Assembly: GCF_026248685.1 (NCBI RefSeq)
Contig: NZ_CP111036.1
Coordinates: 930,001-994,000 of the forward strand
From: Haladaptatus caseinilyticus
GTDB taxonomy: Archaea > Halobacteriota > Halobacteria > Halobacteriales > Haladaptataceae
Length of the DNA: 64,000 nt
Reading direction: 5' to 3'
Under the pieces are notes generated by a model, which saw only the letters and a program-made list of their open reading frames with translations, had not been told where the DNA came from and searched no databases. Positions 37,516 through 47,055 of this stretch are shown in pieces. Made by a program: the position numbers and the translations under genes. The number at the start of each line of letters is the position of its first letter. The stretch's first letter is position 1.

Positions 37516-37605
37516 ATGGAAAACCTCCGACAAAAGCTGATTTCGCTGTTGTTCGTCTTCCTGATGGTGAGTTCAGGGGTCGCGTACACCGTCAGTCTGA
37601 TTTGA
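37516..37605 (+). CDS. Tiny one-TM peptide
   Basis: A 29-codon frame with ATG 38 bases after the preceding stop. The product has a charged start (MENLRQKL) and one hydrophobic helix to the end. Codon use is ordinary. It overlaps the end of the convergent amidase gene by 14 bases. Either a real small membrane protein or chance; too short to decide. Confidence 0.4.
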   Translation: MENLRQKLISLLFVFLMVSSGVAYTVSLI

Positions 37606-38662
37606 GCCAGTAGTCAACGGACCAGCCCGCCTCGCCACTCTCGTAGTCCACGTTCCACCATCGATAGCCCACGGTATCGACGGGACCGCCCGCGATAGTT
37701 CCGGTCGTCCCTTCGGAAACGGTGGCGAGACGTTTCCCATCCGGTTCAGCGCTAACGTTCAGGTCGGATGTCGTCTCCACTGCCGATCCGGCATCAAATC
37801 GTGCATAGAGCAGATCGTCCGCTGGAACCCATCCGTGGGAGTCACCGAAATCGAGTTTGTACCACTGGGTGTCACCACGAACGCGCACGTTCCCGGTGGC
37901 AATGGCAACCGTTCCGGCGGACACGGCCATGGTTTTTGCGTGCTCGTCCGGACCGTGGTGAGCCGCGTCGTCCGAGAGAACGACGGCGTTCTCTCCCGCT
38001 TCGATATCCCAGCGGCGAATGAACCCCTCGTAGCGGCCCCAGTTCCAGAGCGAACCAGGGTCGTAGTGACCGCTGATGCCGCCCGGTTCCGTACAGTCGT
38101 AGGGGTTCGGAATCTGGTCGTGGCCGATGACGCCGCCCTCCCCGTCCGTTGCGTCACAGGGCGCGATCTCGGAGCGCCGGACGCGCTTCGGGAAGTCGAA
38201 CTCGGTCGCTGCCCAGCGGACGATTCTGGCGGAGACTTCGTACAGCGTGTCGGTGTATACCGTATCGTTGACCCATCCGGAATGCTCGATACCGAGCGAG
38301 TGTTGATTGTAAGGCCAGTTTCCGGCGTGCCATCCGATATCTTCCTCGGCGAGCATCTGCGTGAGGTCGCCCGTCCGATGGTCGGCGACGTAATGCGCAC
38401 TCACGTTTGCGTCCGGATTTTGGAACCAATCGACTGTCCACTCGGCCTCACCCTGTGCAACGTGAACCACGAACCACCGGATATCGAGGTCGGATTCGCG
38501 TTCCGCCTCGCTGTAGTTCGACTCGTCTGCCGGTGCCCACCGCATCTCGGGTTTCATTGCCGGAAGTCGTTCTGCTTGCTTTGCATTCGTCTGGCCGGAA
38601 ATCGCACCCGTACCCGCGATGCCACCGATCGTCTTGAGAATCGTCCGTCTCGTTTCTCGCAT
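37592..38662 (-). CDS. Secreted N-acetylmuramoyl-L-alanine amidase with SH3-like domains
   Basis: Predicted peptidoglycan hydrolase of 356 residues. The Tat signal (RETRRTILKTIGGIAG) sits at the start, so ATG at 38662 is preferred. An Amidase_2/PGRP domain spans about residues 45-215: zinc His in WFVVHVAQG, HYVADHRTGDLTQML, NQHSLGIEHSG with the catalytic-type Glu, and GHDQIP and GHYDPGSLWNW with the further ligands. The C-terminal half has two SH3b-like repeats (VRVRGDTQWYKLDFGDSHGW and LNVSAEPDGKRLATVSEG). Archaea have no murein, so the target should be bacterial cell wall. Confidence 0.88.
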   Translation of the reverse strand: MRETRRTILKTIGGIAGTGAISGQTNAKQAERLPAMKPEMRWAPADESNYSEAERESDLDIRWFVVHVAQGEAEWTVDWFQNPDANVSAHYVADHRTGDLTQMLAEEDIGWHAGNWPYNQHSLGIEHSGWVNDTVYTDTLYEVSARIVRWAATEFDFPKRVRRSEIAPCDATDGEGGVIGHDQIPNPYDCTEPGGISGHYDPGSLWNWGRYEGFIRRWDIEAGENAVVLSDDAAHHGPDEHAKTMAVSAGTVAIATGNVRVRGDTQWYKLDFGDSHGWVPADDLLYARFDAGSAVETTSDLNVSAEPDGKRLATVSEGTTGTIAGGPVDTVGYRWWNVDYESGEAGWSVDYWLKSD

Positions 38663-38750
38663 AGTTCGTCCTGATTCCGGTGAATAGGGGGATAAATTAG
38701 ACACCTAGCATGAATGAGTATATTCCGTCCGGTATCTGACTATCGACCTG

Positions 38751-40541
38751 CTATTCCGTGTCCCACACGTCCGCCATCGGACTCTTTCGCTCGCCCGAGT
38801 ACTGCGATTTCGATCGCGAGTTCGTGTCCGAATCACCCCCGTTGTTGCGATTACTACCGTGACTGCCGCCGGAATCGCTCACTCCACCGCCGCGTTTCCC
38901 GATACTGCCGCCCGAACCGGGATCGAACTCCGGAAGGTCGGGATCGCTCATTCGGTCCACCTGCTCGGCGAACCAGTCCGGCATATCGGTGCGAGCACGG
39001 TCGAACAGTTGGAGCAGGCTGGAGTCCGCGAGATACGTCGCGCCGTAATCGTCAGGTGCGCGAATAACGCGTCCACAGGCCTGAATGACGGTTCGAAGTG
39101 CGGCCCGATAGTACCACGCCCACTGGCCGTTTTCGAGGCGGTGGGCGACCCGCGAATCGCTGGTGTTCAGGAATGGAGCCTTACAAAGCACCTGCCACCG
39201 CGCGAGGTCACCCTTCAAATCGAGCGCTTCTTCCATTTTCACTGAGATGAACACGTCCGGGTCGTCGCCCGCCTTCCACGCTTCGAGGTCGGCGTCCCTG
39301 CTGTCGCGTTCGTGGGCGCGAACACGATCGCCGACACCGAACTCGTGGAGTTTCCGGGTCAGCTTCTCCTGGATGTGATAGGAGTGTGCATGAACGATGC
39401 CCTTCTCGTCCGGATGTTTCTGCATGATTTTGACGATAGTGCGTGCTATTTTCGGCAGGGTCTCTTCGCGGTGTTCGTAGGTCATTTTCCCCTGTGTCAC
39501 GTCGTAGAGCGGACGGTTTTCGACGGGGAAAGTATGTCCGACATCCACGAGGGCAACTCGACTGGGTTCGAGGCCGACCTGCCGACAGAACGCCTCCTTG
39601 TTGAGGATCGTCGCCGAGAGGAGCGCGAATTTGTTGCCGCGTTCCCAAACGGTGTGTGAGAGATATCGCTCCGGATTCATCGGCTTGATAGTAATCGGGC
39701 CGCCTTTTCCCTCGGGTTGGTCCACGACCCACTCGGTCGCGCTGTCGGGATTCCGGTAGTCATCCACGAACCAGTCCAATTCGGAGATGAGTTCCTGAAA
39801 CCGATCCCGTCGGGCCGCCTCCGCGGGCGTGAGTTCCTGCTGTGCGATGAGGTCGTCCTTTCTACGTGAGCAGGTTGCTGAAAGGCTATCCGCGTACTCT
39901 ACTGCCCTATCTAGCCCCGTCATCTCCGGGATCTTCAGGTCGTCCCAGATGGGCACCGTTCTGGGGTTCAAGTCGATGGTCGCGTACATCTCCGCCCACT
40001 CGGCGAGTCCGTGAGCCTCGTCGATGACCACCATGTCGCGTTTCCGAAACACCTCCGACCCGGCAGTTCGCATGAAGTAGGCCAACGTCATCGCCGCGAT
40101 CTCCCGATTGCTGGCGATAGCCCGGTCGGAGAAGTACGGACAGCGATGTCTTACCGAGCAATCGTACCCCTTCTCACGCGCACAGGGCGCTCTATCGACC
40201 GGGGTGTCGTGCTCGCCCGGCAGAATACAGGAGTAGTTTCGTTTCCCGCGAATGATTTTCAGATCGTCCAGCAGGTCGTCACTCGCAACGTCGTCCAGTT
40301 GGGATACCTGCGGTGTCGTGTAGTACGACCCCGTAGCATCGGTCGGGTCGGCATCCTCGACACGTCTTGCACATCCCGCGATGGAACGGGCGAGGAGGGA
40401 TTTCCCGCTCCCCGTCGGGGCACGAACGAGTACCACGTCGTTGCCACTCTCGAACGCTGCCCGAATATCTTCGAGGGCGTCCTGTTGGTTACCGCGAAAG
40501 GAGGGCGCAGGAAACTCGTCTACGATCCGCTCGGGGTTCAC
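38751..40541 (-). CDS. XPD/DinG-like Fe-S DNA helicase
   Basis: Superfamily 2 helicase of 596 residues. Walker A is RAPTGSGKSLLARS near residue 42, DEAH box VVIDEAHGLAEWAE near 172. Four cysteines between them (NYSCIL, APCAR, YDCSV, HRCPYF near 98-135) are placed like the 4Fe-4S domain of XPD. Motif VI-like QACGRVIRAPDD is near 500. The last 60 residues are Gly/Ser/Asn-rich and loose. GTG at 40541 (VNPERIVDEFPAP) is the start; upstream codons are antisense-like. Role in repair is inferred. Confidence 0.88.
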   Translation of the reverse strand: MNPERIVDEFPAPSFRGNQQDALEDIRAAFESGNDVVLVRAPTGSGKSLLARSIAGCARRVEDADPTDATGSYYTTPQVSQLDDVASDDLLDDLKIIRGKRNYSCILPGEHDTPVDRAPCAREKGYDCSVRHRCPYFSDRAIASNREIAAMTLAYFMRTAGSEVFRKRDMVVIDEAHGLAEWAEMYATIDLNPRTVPIWDDLKIPEMTGLDRAVEYADSLSATCSRRKDDLIAQQELTPAEAARRDRFQELISELDWFVDDYRNPDSATEWVVDQPEGKGGPITIKPMNPERYLSHTVWERGNKFALLSATILNKEAFCRQVGLEPSRVALVDVGHTFPVENRPLYDVTQGKMTYEHREETLPKIARTIVKIMQKHPDEKGIVHAHSYHIQEKLTRKLHEFGVGDRVRAHERDSRDADLEAWKAGDDPDVFISVKMEEALDLKGDLARWQVLCKAPFLNTSDSRVAHRLENGQWAWYYRAALRTVIQACGRVIRAPDDYGATYLADSSLLQLFDRARTDMPDWFAEQVDRMSDPDLPEFDPGSGGSIGKRGGGVSDSGGSHGSNRNNGGDSDTNSRSKSQYSGERKSPMADVWDTE

Positions 40542-40683
40542 TGTATTGCGTAACGGTAGCCGAAGCGTAAAACCTGCGGGTTTCTGGAGCGATGGAACAG
40601 ACGAGACCGACGGTACGATTAACGTCGAACGGTCGGGAACGGAGACGCGCCGTTCCACGGCACTCGCCTTCGCCGTCGATAGC

Positions 40684-42981
40684 TCACGGCGAACTGACGA
40701 CCGCAACCGCACACGGCGCGTTTCTGAGGATGTGTTCGACCCGGTGCCCGAAGAAGACACGCCGGGAGAGGGGACGCGTTTTGGTGCCGAGGACGACGAG
40801 GTCCGTCCGCTCCAGCATCGCTCGTTCGACGACACTTCGTTCGGGGCGATCACCGATGGAAACCCGCTTTCTCACTGTCGCACCCATCTGGCGACCGAGT
40901 TCGGCCTCCCGCTCGACGATATCCTCCCCGAATTCGATGGCTTCGGAGAGGTCCGCTTCGCCGACGAACGGTTCTTCGACTTGAAGGCGATTGACGACGT
41001 GTAGGATTTCGACCGATGCGTCACACTCGTTCGCGATGGCGAACGCTATTTCGGCGGCCTGACGACTGTACTCGTTTCCGATGGTCGGCAGCAGGATTCG
41101 GCGAACGGAGTCGTCTCGGTACGCTCGCTCGGGGTTCGCTTCGCCCGCGCTGACGGCCATCACGGGGCACGGACTCTCCTGCAGCACGTCATCGATTTCG
41201 GCGCTAAACAGCGACCCGTCGGCCGCTCGTAGGTATCGACCCGCTCCGAGTACCAGCATATCGTATCCCTGTCCAGCCTCATCGAGCACCGTTTCGCTCA
41301 CGTTTCCGTTCGTATTTCGGACCGTCGAACGGACCTGTTTCGGGGGGAGCGAAAGCCGTTCAGTCATCGAATCGAGACACGTCTCGGCCCGGTCGCTCGC
41401 ATCATCGGCCGGTTGAACGACCCCGCCATCTGGCTCCGTCGGTCGAACGATGGATGGCGACCGCGAGAAAACTCGCTTTATGCGACGAGCGAGCGATCCG
41501 CCGCTCGTGGCGCGTTCCTCGCCACGCGTAACGTAGGTACACGTTACCTCCATCTCCCGGTTCCGTGCGACGTGACCGACCAATCGTGCGGCGAACAACG
41601 AATCGACACTGCACCGCGTCGGAAGGAGCACGCGAACGACGTTTCCGAGGAAGCTCTGTTCCTCGCGTTCTTTCTGGGCGAGTCGTTCCGCCTCCGACTC
41701 CGACATCTCGACGCGGGCGAGCGATACTCGGAGCAACGGCGGTGCGATAAGTGAGGTGACGATAGCGACGACGACGATGATGGTGTACATCGTCCCGGTG
41801 AGGACGCCGACGCTGATTCCGATGGTGGCGACGATTATTTCCAGCGCGCCGCGGGCGTTCAAGCCCGACCCGAGCGCGATCCCCTCCCAATTCGAGAGAC
41901 CTGCCGCTTTCGCGCCGACGAACGATCCGGCGAACTTCCCCGCGATTGCGACGGCGAGAACCACACCGGCGGCGAGCAAGGTCGGCGGCGCGAGCAGGGC
42001 GGCCAAATCGACGCGAAGTCCCGCCGTTGCGAAGAAAATAGGTGCGAAGACGCCGAGCGTGATGACCTCGAACGAGTGCTGTGCCGCCTGGTCGAACCGT
42101 TTGACCCGGCCGACGAAGATGCCGACGATGAACGCGCCGAGCACTGCTTCCAAGCCGAGGTACTGGGTTATCGATCCGACACCCAACGCGAGTATCATCG
42201 CCGTCGTCGTGAGCGCGACGTCACCGCCGATGGTGTTGTCCACCCACCGGAAAATCCCACCCACGAATCGACCACCGAGCAGAAAGGCACCGCCGAGAAA
42301 CAGGAACAATAGGAGAATCGTTTGGCCCGCAGTGTCGAGTGCCTCGCCGCTACCGCTTCGAGCGAGGCCAGCGACAACGGCGAGGAGAATCCAGCCGACG
42401 GTATCGTTTATCATCCCCGATGCGATAGTTATCTGCCCGATATCGCGGTCGATGAGTTCCATATCGATGAGCACTTTCGCGATGACCGGAATCGCCGAGA
42501 TGCTGAGCGCGGTTGCGATGAAGAGGCTGAATACGAGTCGCTGGTCGGAGGCGACGAGGAACTGCGCTGGGAGGAGGTACGCCACCCCGAATCCCATCAC
42601 GAACGGAACGAGAATGCTCGCACCCGCGGTGTACGTGGCCGTCTTTGCCCGACTCGCGATGAGGTCGAGGTCGGTTTCGAAGCCGGTAATGAACAGCAAC
42701 ATGATGAGGCCGAGCCACGAGACGACCTCCAACAGATGGTACTGCATTGCGGATTGCGGAAAGAGCATCGTGAACAGGCCGGGTGCGACAGTTCCCAACA
42801 GCGACGGACCCAACACGATTCCCGCGAGTAGCTCGCCCAACACGGACGGCAGACCGGCGTACTTCGCTGCTTCTCCCAGAAGCCGCGCGGTGAGCAACAG
42901 CAAGAACAGCTGAGCGAGCAAGAACAACAACTGGTGCTCGCTGAGCGGCGGAAGCACCCCGCCCGAGGTTTCGAGTATCAT
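40684..42981 (-). CDS. CPA2 cation/proton antiporter with Usp domains
   Basis: Membrane protein of 765 residues. About twelve helices fill residues 10-425, with LPSVLGELLAGIVLGPSLLG near 43-62 and SGMINDTVGWILLAV near 185-199, where the Asp pair for ion exchange would lie. The C-terminal 330 residues are cytoplasmic and hold two universal-stress-protein-like domains (VLGAGRYLRAADGS and VLGTKTRPLSRRVFFGHRVE motifs). Likely Na+ or K+/H+ exchange. ATG at 42981 gives the natural MILETSGG start. Confidence 0.9.
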   Translation of the reverse strand: MILETSGGVLPPLSEHQLLFLLAQLFLLLLTARLLGEAAKYAGLPSVLGELLAGIVLGPSLLGTVAPGLFTMLFPQSAMQYHLLEVVSWLGLIMLLFITGFETDLDLIASRAKTATYTAGASILVPFVMGFGVAYLLPAQFLVASDQRLVFSLFIATALSISAIPVIAKVLIDMELIDRDIGQITIASGMINDTVGWILLAVVAGLARSGSGEALDTAGQTILLLFLFLGGAFLLGGRFVGGIFRWVDNTIGGDVALTTTAMILALGVGSITQYLGLEAVLGAFIVGIFVGRVKRFDQAAQHSFEVITLGVFAPIFFATAGLRVDLAALLAPPTLLAAGVVLAVAIAGKFAGSFVGAKAAGLSNWEGIALGSGLNARGALEIIVATIGISVGVLTGTMYTIIVVVAIVTSLIAPPLLRVSLARVEMSESEAERLAQKEREEQSFLGNVVRVLLPTRCSVDSLFAARLVGHVARNREMEVTCTYVTRGEERATSGGSLARRIKRVFSRSPSIVRPTEPDGGVVQPADDASDRAETCLDSMTERLSLPPKQVRSTVRNTNGNVSETVLDEAGQGYDMLVLGAGRYLRAADGSLFSAEIDDVLQESPCPVMAVSAGEANPERAYRDDSVRRILLPTIGNEYSRQAAEIAFAIANECDASVEILHVVNRLQVEEPFVGEADLSEAIEFGEDIVEREAELGRQMGATVRKRVSIGDRPERSVVERAMLERTDLVVLGTKTRPLSRRVFFGHRVEHILRNAPCAVAVVSSP

Positions 42982-43067: not shown

Positions 43068-44228
43068 TCACGGCCACGAGGTAGGTCGAATACCGGCAAT
43101 CTGCTGTCTCGTTTCGAGCATGTCGAGGAAATCCGGTTTGGTCAGTACGCCGACGGACGAGGGAAACGAAACGAGAACGTAGTTCGTCTGCTCCCGGAGG
43201 AGCAGATATACGTCGAATGCGTTTTCGTCCGGTCGGACGATGACGACATCCTCCGTCGCTAATTTACCGACGCTCGTCGTGTTCTGGGACCTCGCTCGTT
43301 CGTCCCACGATCGGAGGGAGCTCGTCGTGAGGACACCGACTGGTTGACCGTTCCTATCACACACCGGAAAATCGTCCAGTTCGTCGAGGTTCGGTTGTTC
43401 GTCCGTAAGGAAGTCGCTGACGAGTGTTTGCGAAGGGACACACTCCTCCTTCCGTCGGACGAACGCCGATACCGGCATGTCGGCGAGGAAGAGCTGATTC
43501 GACACCGTTTGGAGTTCGGAAACGGTCGAAAAATAGAAAAATACCGCGACGAGTCCGAGGAGCACGTTTCCGAGCACGACGGCGGCGTAGAAGATGACTC
43601 CGATCGCCAGTAGCTGCCCGAGAAGGCTTACTCCTCGCGTCGCGGTTCGCGGGGAACTGACACGAACTACCAACGAGCGGAGCAACAGGGCGCCATCGAA
43701 CGGGAAGATAGGAAGCAGATTGACTACCAAAATCACGCCGTTGAACATCGCAATCAGGCCGAACGACGCCACGAACTCCGGAGTGGTTCCGGGGAGTAGC
43801 CAAAGAATTGCCGTGAAGAGTACGGTAAGGAGTGCGCTCACGATCGTTCCGGAAAGCGCGATTCGGGTTTCGTATTCGAAGTAGGTCGAGTCGTAATCGA
43901 ACTGCGAGAAGCCGCCGAAAATCCACAACAGGATGTACCGGACGCCGACGCTGTGCCGTCTGGCTACCCATACCCGTGCCAGTTCGTGAACGAACAGACT
44001 CAGGGCGAAACCGAAAAACACGGCACCACCGATGAGCCATGGAGTCGTTCCCGTGTCGATTTCCGAATAGACGAGCGTGTGCGGCGAAATCGCGGTGAGA
44101 ACGTCGATCCACACGCGAACCGACACGCCGCGTTGAATCCACCACCCTGCAACGGGAAGCGCCAGTAGAAGACTGATATCGATTCGAACTGGAACACCCC
44201 ATACAGACCCGAAGCGAACCCCCCTCAT
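43068..44228 (-). CDS. Site-2-protease-like membrane protein with altered zinc motif and CBS domains
   Basis: M50-family homologue of 386 residues with six or so helices and a C-terminal CBS pair (from about residue 255). The catalytic HExxH motif reads HELAR near residue 81, so the second zinc His is Arg. The third-ligand motif is kept as NLLPIFPFDGALLLR near 168, with one Gly of the usual DGG changed. It may be an inactive relative that still binds membranes and nucleotides. The nucleotide reading CGG for that Arg is clear. Confidence 0.85.
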   Translation of the reverse strand: MRGVRFGSVWGVPVRIDISLLLALPVAGWWIQRGVSVRVWIDVLTAISPHTLVYSEIDTGTTPWLIGGAVFFGFALSLFVHELARVWVARRHSVGVRYILLWIFGGFSQFDYDSTYFEYETRIALSGTIVSALLTVLFTAILWLLPGTTPEFVASFGLIAMFNGVILVVNLLPIFPFDGALLLRSLVVRVSSPRTATRGVSLLGQLLAIGVIFYAAVVLGNVLLGLVAVFFYFSTVSELQTVSNQLFLADMPVSAFVRRKEECVPSQTLVSDFLTDEQPNLDELDDFPVCDRNGQPVGVLTTSSLRSWDERARSQNTTSVGKLATEDVVIVRPDENAFDVYLLLREQTNYVLVSFPSSVGVLTKPDFLDMLETRQQIAGIRPTSWP

Positions 44229-44293: not shown

Positions 44294-44503
44294 TTACTCG
44301 GCGTTACCGATTGCTGCGACGTCCTCGCTCGTCGGAAAATCCGGTAATTCTTCGATACAGGCATAACAGAGGAAGTGCTCGCTTCCGTCCTCGAACTCCA
44401 ACGTCATCCCACCCGACGACTGCGGAGACGTGTTCCAGAGATTGGCGATGCCACCAGCGATGGGCACCCCCTCACCACAACCGTCGCATTTCTCGATGGC
44501 CAT
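44294..44503 (-). CDS. Small haloarchaeal zinc-finger protein
   Basis: Protein of 69 residues with CDGCGEG near residue 6 and CYACIEEL near 46, the two halves of a zinc site, and an acidic end. Similar to a haloarchaea-only family (DUF7561-like). Function unknown; size and motif fit a DNA- or protein-binding adaptor. Stands alone between the S2P-like gene and the nuclease gene. Confidence 0.75.
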   Translation of the reverse strand: MAIEKCDGCGEGVPIAGGIANLWNTSPQSSGGMTLEFEDGSEHFLCYACIEELPDFPTSEDVAAIGNAE

Positions 44504-44640
44504 GGATCCGATAGGTGGTTCACAGGGAAAGAACGTTCGGCAACGGAAGGGAAATCGCGTGCGAGTAACCGGACTAGCGTTCGAGATGCCGGCCGTCGCC
44601 GACGAACAGAATCGAAGGCGCAGTAGTGGTGGAACGTAGT

Positions 44641-47055
44641 TCAGTACGACTTGCTGGTATGCAGCGTGCCGCTGTCGTCGTAGACATAGACGGTGTCGCC
44701 GCCGTTGTTCCAGACTGCGGAACCAGTGTTGCCCCAGTAGAGGTCGGTCTGGGTGTCCGTTCCGGTTCCGGTGTGGAGCGTCACTTGTGCGCCCGCGGCG
44801 AGGGTAAAGCCGCTCGGGAAGTCGTACGTCTTCCCGACTTCATCCTGCACGGACCAACCTGTCAGGTCGAGGTCACCGCTGCCGGTGTTTTCGAAGACGA
44901 CGTACTCGTCGTTCAGATTGTTCGTGTCGTCGCCCGCTGCGTCCGCGTGAATCTGGGCGACCGAGAGCGACCCGCTTCCACCACCACCGCCGGTCGAGCC
45001 ATCGTAGGCATCGAAGAGCGGGAAGGAAGTGTCGAAGGAGGTGGTCGTCGGAATCTCGGAGTTGCTGTTGACGTTGTTCGAACTGTCGGTGACCTGGTCA
45101 TCGTTGATGCGCAGGTCGGACCCGAGTCCCGACGCGAGGTCGTTCAGGTTTGCACGAGCACTCGATGGTGCCGTGCCAGCACCGACGAGGACGACCGCGC
45201 CACCGTCCGCGATGAAGGCGGTGAGTGCATCGATTTCTGCTTGCGTAAACGCCGAGACGGGCGTCGTGACGACGACCGCTCGCCAGCGCGAGAGGTCGAA
45301 GGTGTCGAGGCTGTTCGACTGCTCGAAGGAGATGCCGACGCCTTCGAGGAATCGCTGGTAGTAGGCGGCATCGTCGTTCGAGAGTGCATAACTCGCGTCG
45401 AACTGGCCGTGGCCACCGTCGATGAGAACGTCACCGGTCGTGTCGGTGAGGTAATCGATGAGGTTCGTCAGGAAGACGAAGTTCTCGTAGCCCGAGGTAT
45501 CGACCGCGAAGCCTTCGGAGCTCTCGTAGGTCTCGTCGATGAGTGGACTTCCGACCATCGCGACGTTCGCGGACTCGTCAACTGCCGCGAGCGGGATGTC
45601 GCCGCTGTAGGAGTAACCACCGCTCTGGGTCGCCGTGCTCTCGGCGTAGACCGGAACGCGGGAATCCGCGACCGCGCCGGATGACGTTTTGACGCTCGAC
45701 GTGGTCGGGAAGAACAGGTCGTCTACCGCTCGGTTACGGATTTCGGTCGTGTTCTCGGGGTCACTGTCTCCCCAGACGTTCGTGCCGTTCGAGCGGGCCG
45801 TGTCTTCCGCACTCCAGAAGCTGTCGTGGTGAGAGAAGCCGGACCCATAGACACGGGCGTAGCCGTCTCGAACCGCGTTTCGGTTGTAGAAGTCATCCCG
45901 GGAACCACTGCCGTCAGCGTCGTAGTGGAGATAGCCCAGGACGCGGCCGTACGCATCACGGACGGGTTCGTTTTGGTCGAACGAGAGGTCCACCGTCTTC
46001 CCGTCGAGTTCTCCCTTCGCGTAGGTGGTCGCGTTGCTGCCCCACGTTCCGAGGTAATCGAGCGATTCGATGCCCTCCCACTCCTGAACGCGCTCTGCGG
46101 AACTGTTCGCCGCTTTCTCGGGCGTGTCGATCCCGAGAATGCGGATGCTCTCGGTCGAACCGTCGTCGAACTGCACATCGACTGTGTCGCCGTCGGTAAC
46201 GGCGGTAACGTCCACGGTGTACGTCTTGTCCTTGTCGAGGCCGAGTCCGTCGCGGTCGGCGAAGTAGTTGAACGATGTGTTGAATTCATCGGTCAGCGGT
46301 TTGTAATCCGCACCGCCGTTGTTTGACGTGTCGAGAACTTCGTCGTCGTTGAACCGGAACGCGAGTCCGAGATAGCTTGCGACGTCGTTCAGGTTGGCCG
46401 TCTCGTCGTAGTCGCTGTAGTCGGATTGACTATACAGGAAGACGGAACCGCCTGCCGCGACGAAGTCGTTGAGGTCGCTGAGTTCCTGACTGGTGAACGC
46501 GTTCGCGGGCGAGGTGACGACGACCGCGTCCGCCGAACTGAGGTCGTTCGAGAGGTTGCTCGTTGCCGTCACCGTGTAGCCGTTGTTCTCGGCATAGCTT
46601 TCGAAGTTCGAGAATTTGCTGAGGGTGTAGTATTGGCCGTGGCCTTCGTCCCAGAGAACGGTTCCGGAGCCACCGAGTTCGTCGTCCCACGTGTTCAGGA
46701 CGAACTCCTCGTTACCTCGCTGCCAGTTAGTGCCGTCCTCGACGAGCGTCGAACCGGCGGCGACGACGTTCGAGTCCGAAACGACGGTTGGAATCGACGT
46801 TCCACTACTGTAGAGCGTAGCGTCGCCATTACTGTCGCCATCGTTGTTCGTGGCGGTGTCTTCCGCCCAGACGGCGATGAACGAACTGTCAGTCAGTTCG
46901 CCCCCGCTGGAATCAGTGAAGCTCGACGTGGAATAACATTCGACCGGCGAAATCTGACCCGAGGCGGCGCGAACCTCGGAACTGAGAGTCGCCGTAATTG
47001 GTGCAGATGCTGTTGCTGTTGCGAGCGCGGACAGGAATGTTCGTCGTCGCATCAT
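44641..47055 (-). CDS. Secreted modular nuclease: DUF4350 - SNase - DUF4350 - lamin tail
   Basis: Exported protein of 804 residues with a Tat signal (MMRRRTFLSALATATAS) and signal end near VRA (residue 30). A DUF4350-like domain (about 130-265; WDEGHGQYYTLSKF) precedes a staphylococcal-nuclease domain (about 285-435) that keeps RILGIDTPE and VRDAYGRVLGYL, the catalytic Arg, Asp, Glu, Arg set. A second DUF4350-like unit (about 525-665; IDGGHGQFDASYALS) and a C-terminal lamin-tail domain (LDLTGWSVQDEVGKTYDFP near 740) follow. Very acidic. It probably cuts extracellular DNA or RNA. Confidence 0.9.
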   Translation of the reverse strand: MMRRRTFLSALATATASAPITATLSSEVRAASGQISPVECYSTSSFTDSSGGELTDSSFIAVWAEDTATNNDGDSNGDATLYSSGTSIPTVVSDSNVVAAGSTLVEDGTNWQRGNEEFVLNTWDDELGGSGTVLWDEGHGQYYTLSKFSNFESYAENNGYTVTATSNLSNDLSSADAVVVTSPANAFTSQELSDLNDFVAAGGSVFLYSQSDYSDYDETANLNDVASYLGLAFRFNDDEVLDTSNNGGADYKPLTDEFNTSFNYFADRDGLGLDKDKTYTVDVTAVTDGDTVDVQFDDGSTESIRILGIDTPEKAANSSAERVQEWEGIESLDYLGTWGSNATTYAKGELDGKTVDLSFDQNEPVRDAYGRVLGYLHYDADGSGSRDDFYNRNAVRDGYARVYGSGFSHHDSFWSAEDTARSNGTNVWGDSDPENTTEIRNRAVDDLFFPTTSSVKTSSGAVADSRVPVYAESTATQSGGYSYSGDIPLAAVDESANVAMVGSPLIDETYESSEGFAVDTSGYENFVFLTNLIDYLTDTTGDVLIDGGHGQFDASYALSNDDAAYYQRFLEGVGISFEQSNSLDTFDLSRWRAVVVTTPVSAFTQAEIDALTAFIADGGAVVLVGAGTAPSSARANLNDLASGLGSDLRINDDQVTDSSNNVNSNSEIPTTTSFDTSFPLFDAYDGSTGGGGGSGSLSVAQIHADAAGDDTNNLNDEYVVFENTGSGDLDLTGWSVQDEVGKTYDFPSGFTLAAGAQVTLHTGTGTDTQTDLYWGNTGSAVWNNGGDTVYVYDDSGTLHTSKSY

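Follow-up and report, generated by a model that had tools for sequence, protein, structure and literature searches.

A Site-2-Protease Homolog Without the Second Zinc Histidine Is Conserved in Haladaptatus and Is Probably a Retained Archaeal Pseudoprotease

Introduction

A gene of the haloarchaeon Haladaptatus caseinilyticus encodes a homolog of the site-2 proteases (S2Ps) in which the HExxH motif of the family reads HELAR, and the question that it raises is a simple one: "Is this the remnant of a dying protease gene, or a protein that has been kept although it can no longer cut?" The gene lies in a 64,000-nucleotide stretch of chromosome (the window) from a genome of 7 contigs and 4.8 Mb (G000). 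A preliminary description of the window, made from its letters alone, had noted the loss of the second zinc histidine and changes in a second motif, and had proposed a pseudoprotease with a regulatory or binding role, or a simple inactivation should the relatives prove to have HELAH. We have compared the gene with its orthologs, its paralogs and the wider S2P family of the haloarchaea.

Results

The protein and its altered motifs

The open reading frame starts with ATG, has no internal stop and matches the M50 family profile (Pfam Peptidase_M50, PF02163, E 6e-13, 49 bits with a cut-off of 27.2). The CBS part had been described as retained, and it is: Pfam CBS scores above its cut-off of 24 in two stretches (E 5e-6, 27.2 bits). 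The features of the gene are as follows.

43068..44228, minus strand: candidate S2P (M50) pseudoprotease with a C-terminal CBS region, 386 aa (open reading frame; Pfam M50 and CBS; six same-genus orthologs)
43974..43988, minus strand: HELAR (residues 81-85) in place of HExxH, with CGG as the codon of R85 (codons; alignment with mjS2P H54-H58)
43677..43706, minus strand: FPFDGALLLR (residues 175-184) in place of an FPMDGGR-type motif, D178 kept (FPFDGAL in 7/7 orthologs)
43071..43478, minus strand: CBS region, about residues 251-386 (best Pfam stretch 320-370; pLDDT; CBS folds in Foldseek)

Residues 81-85 are encoded by CAC GAA CTG GCA CGG. In a phmmer alignment with mjS2P (PDB 3b4r, E 8e-12), H81 pairs with H54, E82 with E55, R85 with H58, N170 with N140 and D178 with D148. 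We take H54, H58 and D148 to be the zinc ligands of mjS2P. The particulars of the preliminary description are borne out, in that an arginine stands where the second zinc histidine should be, DGG has become DGA and the acid of FPFD is kept. The available part of a study of SpoIVFB gives H43/H47/D137 as the corresponding residues of that enzyme (PMC11486902). Zinc should need a minimum of two of its three ligands to stay in such a site, and with one of the two histidines gone from the Haladaptatus protein no catalytic zinc is expected.

An AlphaFold model built on a 5-sequence alignment has a mean pLDDT of 60.7 and a pTM of 0.38 and is too poor to show a metal site or a contact between R85 and D178. 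Its membrane part, where the six-helix core of the family would lie, is mostly below a pLDDT of 50, and the hydrophobic peaks of the sequence fall in the same regions as in active relatives. Residues 251-370, in the CBS region, are modeled better (block means of 70-89), and a Foldseek search of the PDB returned mainly CBS folds, with SpoIVFB in 39th place at an rmsd of 29.5 A, which is no superposition.

Orthologs in the genus

The gene was found in 7 of the 9 Haladaptatus genomes searched (window included), always in one syntenic place, the six orthologs being 77, 77, 76, 76, 64 and 63% identical to the window copy. None of the seven has the second histidine: the motif is HELAR in four (G000, G006, G007 and G008), HKLAR in G003, HDLVQ in G004 and HDLVR in G001, and the codons of residue 85 are CGG, CGC (in four), CGA and CAG. 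A lone point mutation in H. caseinilyticus and a sequencing or frame error at the motif are both ruled out by this loss in 7/7 orthologs with differing codons, and the relatives with HELAH that would have reduced the case to simple inactivation did not appear in the alignment. At residue 82, where the catalytic Glu should stand, E, K or D occurs, and 3/7 copies have no Glu there. Six of the seven copies are intact and five of them are exactly 386 aa long without gaps.

Other positions have not varied. FPFDGAL is identical in all seven sequences, and so are H81, N163, N170 (the conserved Asn) and D178 (the third zinc ligand). His50, encoded at about 44079-44081 of the window, is also present in 7/7, at a position that is mostly A/T/V/L in active relatives. 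Such constancy of single residues proves little, for the pseudoprotease reading as for any other, since about a third of all columns are invariant among these seven sequences.

Could the protein still cut, either by a metal-free mechanism or through a rearranged metal site in which, for example, H81 and D178 are joined by a new ligand (H50 perhaps)? The invariance of H81, D178 and N170 and the peculiarity of H50 would suit such an enzyme. Against it, H50 lies in a stretch of the model with a pLDDT below 50, and the position of the catalytic Glu has become E, K or D, a change that a metallopeptidase would not tolerate. We consider this reading improbable; as the second histidine is Arg or Gln in all species and the residue of the general base varies, peptidase activity of the 386-aa protein is very unlikely.

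The altered motif within the S2P family

Outside the clade of seven, HExxH was found in every one of the 113 S2P matches that could be read at the motif (96 aligned rows, the stop-broken L022 with HELGH, 12 new genes from a set of 24 loci whose other half repeated earlier ones, and 4 further HELGH genes). All S2P matches from a search of 59 genomes were read wherever they reach the motif, and the main alignment held 103 loci plus the window, with the clade forming 7 of its rows; left out of it were L007 (a copy of the window gene), L001, L002, L004-L006 and long flank loci, and L177, L181 and L182 stop short of the motif and were not read there. HExxH is likewise present in 31/31 loci of two further M50 subfamilies (proteins of about 374 and 610 aa) from the same taxonomic family, two of these loci being in the window genome. 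That genome thus holds three M50 genes with an intact motif besides the HELAR gene, among them an active-looking paralog (G000:C1:1223965-1224987) with HELGH and FPMDGGR and 31% identity. The residue after DGA, 181, is Leu in 7/7 clade copies and Arg in 97/97 other relatives, which have DGGR with the exception of one NGGR.

In the searches that follow, the form without the second histidine was traced no further than the genus. The matches in 28 genomes of the family and in 392 of the order leave a gap in identity from 63% down to about 35%, and those in 391 genomes of the class leave one from 762 down to 237 bits (the three draws overlap; thresholds 1e-40, 1e-50 and 1e-55). Of the 82 matches listed at class level, 52 had no assigned locus and 6 of these had been read already, which leaves 46 unread motifs, all scoring far below the clade. 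A scan of genome contigs, which needs short exact patterns, returned 4 loci, all from Haladaptatus. A viral or mobile origin was considered and rejected: the scan of viral contigs returned 2 loci whose 31% identity extends over no more than 48 residues, and these are not members.

As a separate observation, several S2P-CBS copies of the large genomes G002 and G007 (L022, L037, L118, L176 and L177) are stop-broken or cut short. S2P-CBS genes seem to have been gained and lost often in Haladaptatus.

A single origin and purifying selection

In a tree of 102 rows from which the motif columns had been removed (and the stop-broken L022 and L118 left out), the seven copies form one group with an SH-aLRT of 100, separate from the other haloarchaeal relatives. 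The stem of the clade has 3.24 changes per column, a value from a quick method with no bootstrap, for which the program issued a warning about long branches meeting at this point. Many positions with hardly any variation in active relatives changed on this stem and were then fixed (for example Leu for R181, Tyr for S98 and Phe for W117), and P128, conserved in active relatives, is replaced by varied residues.

The gene might instead be a dying S2P copy without function in this lineage, and some of its features do look that way: it is missing in 2 of the 9 species, is frameshifted in one and has evolved faster than the active paralog. Its dN/dS (Nei-Gojobori) is nevertheless well below 1 in 21/21 pairs. 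Among the five close species it is 0.132-0.230 (10 pairs; 0.114-0.170 for the active paralog in the same pairs), among the six intact copies 0.132-0.373 (15 pairs) and, when the first stretch of the G001 copy is added, up to 0.489 (21 pairs), although the wider pairs are rough since their synonymous distances are near 1. The gene exceeds the paralog in dN by a factor of 1.3 to 2.1, and in each of the 15 pairs for which both parts were counted the CBS region has diverged faster than the membrane part. The gene is under purifying selection, and from the raised dN and a dN/dS of up to 0.37 or 0.49 the constraint is somewhat weaker than that on the active enzyme. Such selection argues against simple decay in this species, and the length kept without gaps in five species and the fixation, with no drift, of the new motif FPFDGAL point the same way. 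The dying copy is accordingly strongly disfavored, and we would call it improbable. The pseudoprotease reading of the preliminary description, by contrast, gains support from the combination of motif loss throughout the clade and purifying selection.

The genomic place, losses and neighbors

The gene sits in an insertion place whose edges are the same in every species, with the following neighbors.

44297..44506, minus strand: DUF7561 small protein (PF24442, Pfam), upstream neighbor and left edge of the insertion place in 9/9 species
40684..42981, minus strand: Na+/H+-exchanger-family transporter with Usp domains, 765 aa, downstream (Pfam)
38751..40853, minus strand: Rad3/DinG-like helicase, bounding the insertion place on the right (Pfam Helicase_C_2 and DEAD_2; conserved part from near residue 90)
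44641-47055, minus strand: SNase-LTD protein, 804 aa, combining staphylococcal-nuclease and lamin-tail domains with a DUF4350/GIFT-like stretch

The upstream DUF7561 gene and the downstream helicase gene are found in 9/9 species, window included. In the two species without the gene (G002 and G005) about 30 bases separate the DUF7561 match from the helicase match, and nothing resembling the gene was detected there at E values up to 10. The active paralogs of G002 and G008 are paired in their tree (support 98), as are those of G005 and G004 (support 82), so that two losses are the simple reading. The G001 ortholog (L057 7073-8285) has a frameshift after about residue 280, which is either real decay or an assembly error. 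Together with the two absences it implies that the gene is not essential to the genus, and it is dispensable over time.

Is the gene perhaps a dedicated regulatory subunit of the neighboring Na+/H+-exchanger-Usp transporter, with no part in S2P signaling? In 3 of the 7 gene-bearing species (G000, G008 and G001) the transporter is the next gene downstream, with the same orientation, and this order may be old, G001 being on the other side of the clade; the arrangement hints at a link between the two proteins. Against a subunit, the genes are not adjacent in the other four genomes, although these have transporter homologs elsewhere (62-64% identity), and G002 has two such homologs (63% and 55%) without the pseudoprotease. 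In G005 no transporter homolog was detected at E values up to 1e-100, and no transporter was seen beside the active S2P genes within the flanks read. We consider the subunit reading unlikely. An operon with the transporter was rejected because the adjacency holds in only 3/7, and a specific operon with DUF7561 because that gene is also present in both species that lack the S2P homolog.

The SNase-LTD gene was recognized beside the S2P homolog in 5 of the 7 gene-bearing species (in G008 and G001 an opposite-strand open reading frame was picked at that position) and is present in G002 and G005 as well. Its protein is conserved in the genus, with 58-59% identity in two genomes of a sister genus. 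Beyond the helicase, positions 37592-38704 (minus strand) encode a protein that looks secreted and matches the N-acetylmuramoyl-L-alanine amidase domain (PF01510, E 7e-22). Homologs of it are found at the corresponding position in the loci of 4 other species (71-81% identity) and in L119 (77%). We know of no murein in archaea of this group.

Discussion

We conclude that the gene probably encodes a retained archaeal S2P pseudoprotease which, to judge from comparison of sequences, would act as a CBS-controlled binder of membrane proteins. As a whole, a conserved S2P pseudoenzyme is the best explanation that we have, and we hold it with rather more confidence than doubt. The comparison itself establishes the motif loss throughout the clade, its single origin, the purifying selection, the constant genomic place and the repeated loss of the gene. 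The further parts of the explanation differ in strength: zinc and activity have very likely been lost and a molecular function has likely been retained, while the proposal that this function is the binding of S2P-type substrates or partners is tentative.

How might such a protein have come about? In the common ancestor of the Haladaptatus species examined, an ancestral S2P-CBS paralog would have taken up its place between the genes for DUF7561 and the helicase. The second zinc histidine would then have been lost (it is now Arg or Gln) and the catalytic Glu relaxed to E, K or D, while the new FPFDGAL motif was fixed and H81, N163, N170 and D178 were kept. The protein would still possess a membrane core, the residues on the substrate side and a CBS region. 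Segments of membrane proteins may still be taken into the old S2P cleft and left uncut, so that the protein could work alongside the cell's active S2P paralog as a decoy, a chaperone or an adaptor, and the CBS region could be its sensing or dimerizing part. That an S2P can bind without cutting is made plausible by SpoIVFB: E44Q and zinc-free wild-type SpoIVFB hold the substrate Pro-sigmaK according to the available text of PMC11486902, and BofA blocks the enzyme by filling its cleft, as stated in the accessible portion of PMC9042235. The Haladaptatus protein and these SpoIVFB forms share the S2P-CBS core, and the latter hold substrate uncut; they are, however, a laboratory mutant or a zinc-depleted enzyme and not natural pseudoenzymes (PMC11486902, same portion).

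Relative to the active haloarchaeal S2P-CBS enzymes, which are its paralogs and of the mjS2P type (PDB 3b4r), the protein has the M50 domain, the CBS tail, H81, N163, N170, D178 and the general hydrophobic profile in common. It differs from them, at about 30-35% identity, in lacking the second zinc histidine, P128 and W117, in the change of Glu in 3/7 copies and in having DGAL for DGGR. The plant chloroplast protein EGY3 is described as an S2P pseudoprotease that has a phenotype, in what is available of PMC9355673 (also PMC10978774), and like it the Haladaptatus protein is an S2P homolog without HExxH that is conserved within a clade and kept as a gene. As expected of a pseudoprotease of the EGY3 kind, the presumably inactive state is conserved under selection (7/7 copies; dN/dS 0.13-0.49 in 21 pairs). 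The likeness drawn here is one of description, our tree being one of haloarchaeal relatives, in which the clade is separate. In contrast to the plant protein, the one studied here is archaeal, and it bears CBS domains. By analogy of working, it might also be compared with the iRhoms, dead intramembrane proteases kept to bind and regulate, although these are eukaryotic rhomboids of an unrelated serine family (PMC3149277, available part).

A bolder version is that S2P pseudoproteases arose twice independently, the second time in archaea, and that Haladaptatus has a form in which R85 (or Gln) would pair with the zinc-site Asp in a salt bridge that replaces the zinc and locks the cleft in a substrate-binding state, nucleotide bound via the CBS region would open and close it, and the protein would tune the active S2P or the transporter. 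We regard this detailed scheme as doubtful. The available parts of two reviews of haloarchaeal membrane proteases (PMC9263693, PMC4343526) mention S2Ps with no dead form, and the words HExxH, inactive and Haladaptatus are absent from those parts. Similarly, no prokaryotic S2P pseudoprotease could be recognized in the titles and abstract starts of the open-license literature searched.

Rhomboid pseudoproteases such as the iRhoms are well known, and the S2P family has one named pseudoprotease in the literature searched, the plant EGY3. A small cultured archaeal genus in which most species have the presumably dead form, two have lost it and every cell has an active paralog would offer clean natural conditions for the question "What does an S2P cleft do when it is unable to cut?", a question that has so far been put to laboratory mutants of SpoIVFB.
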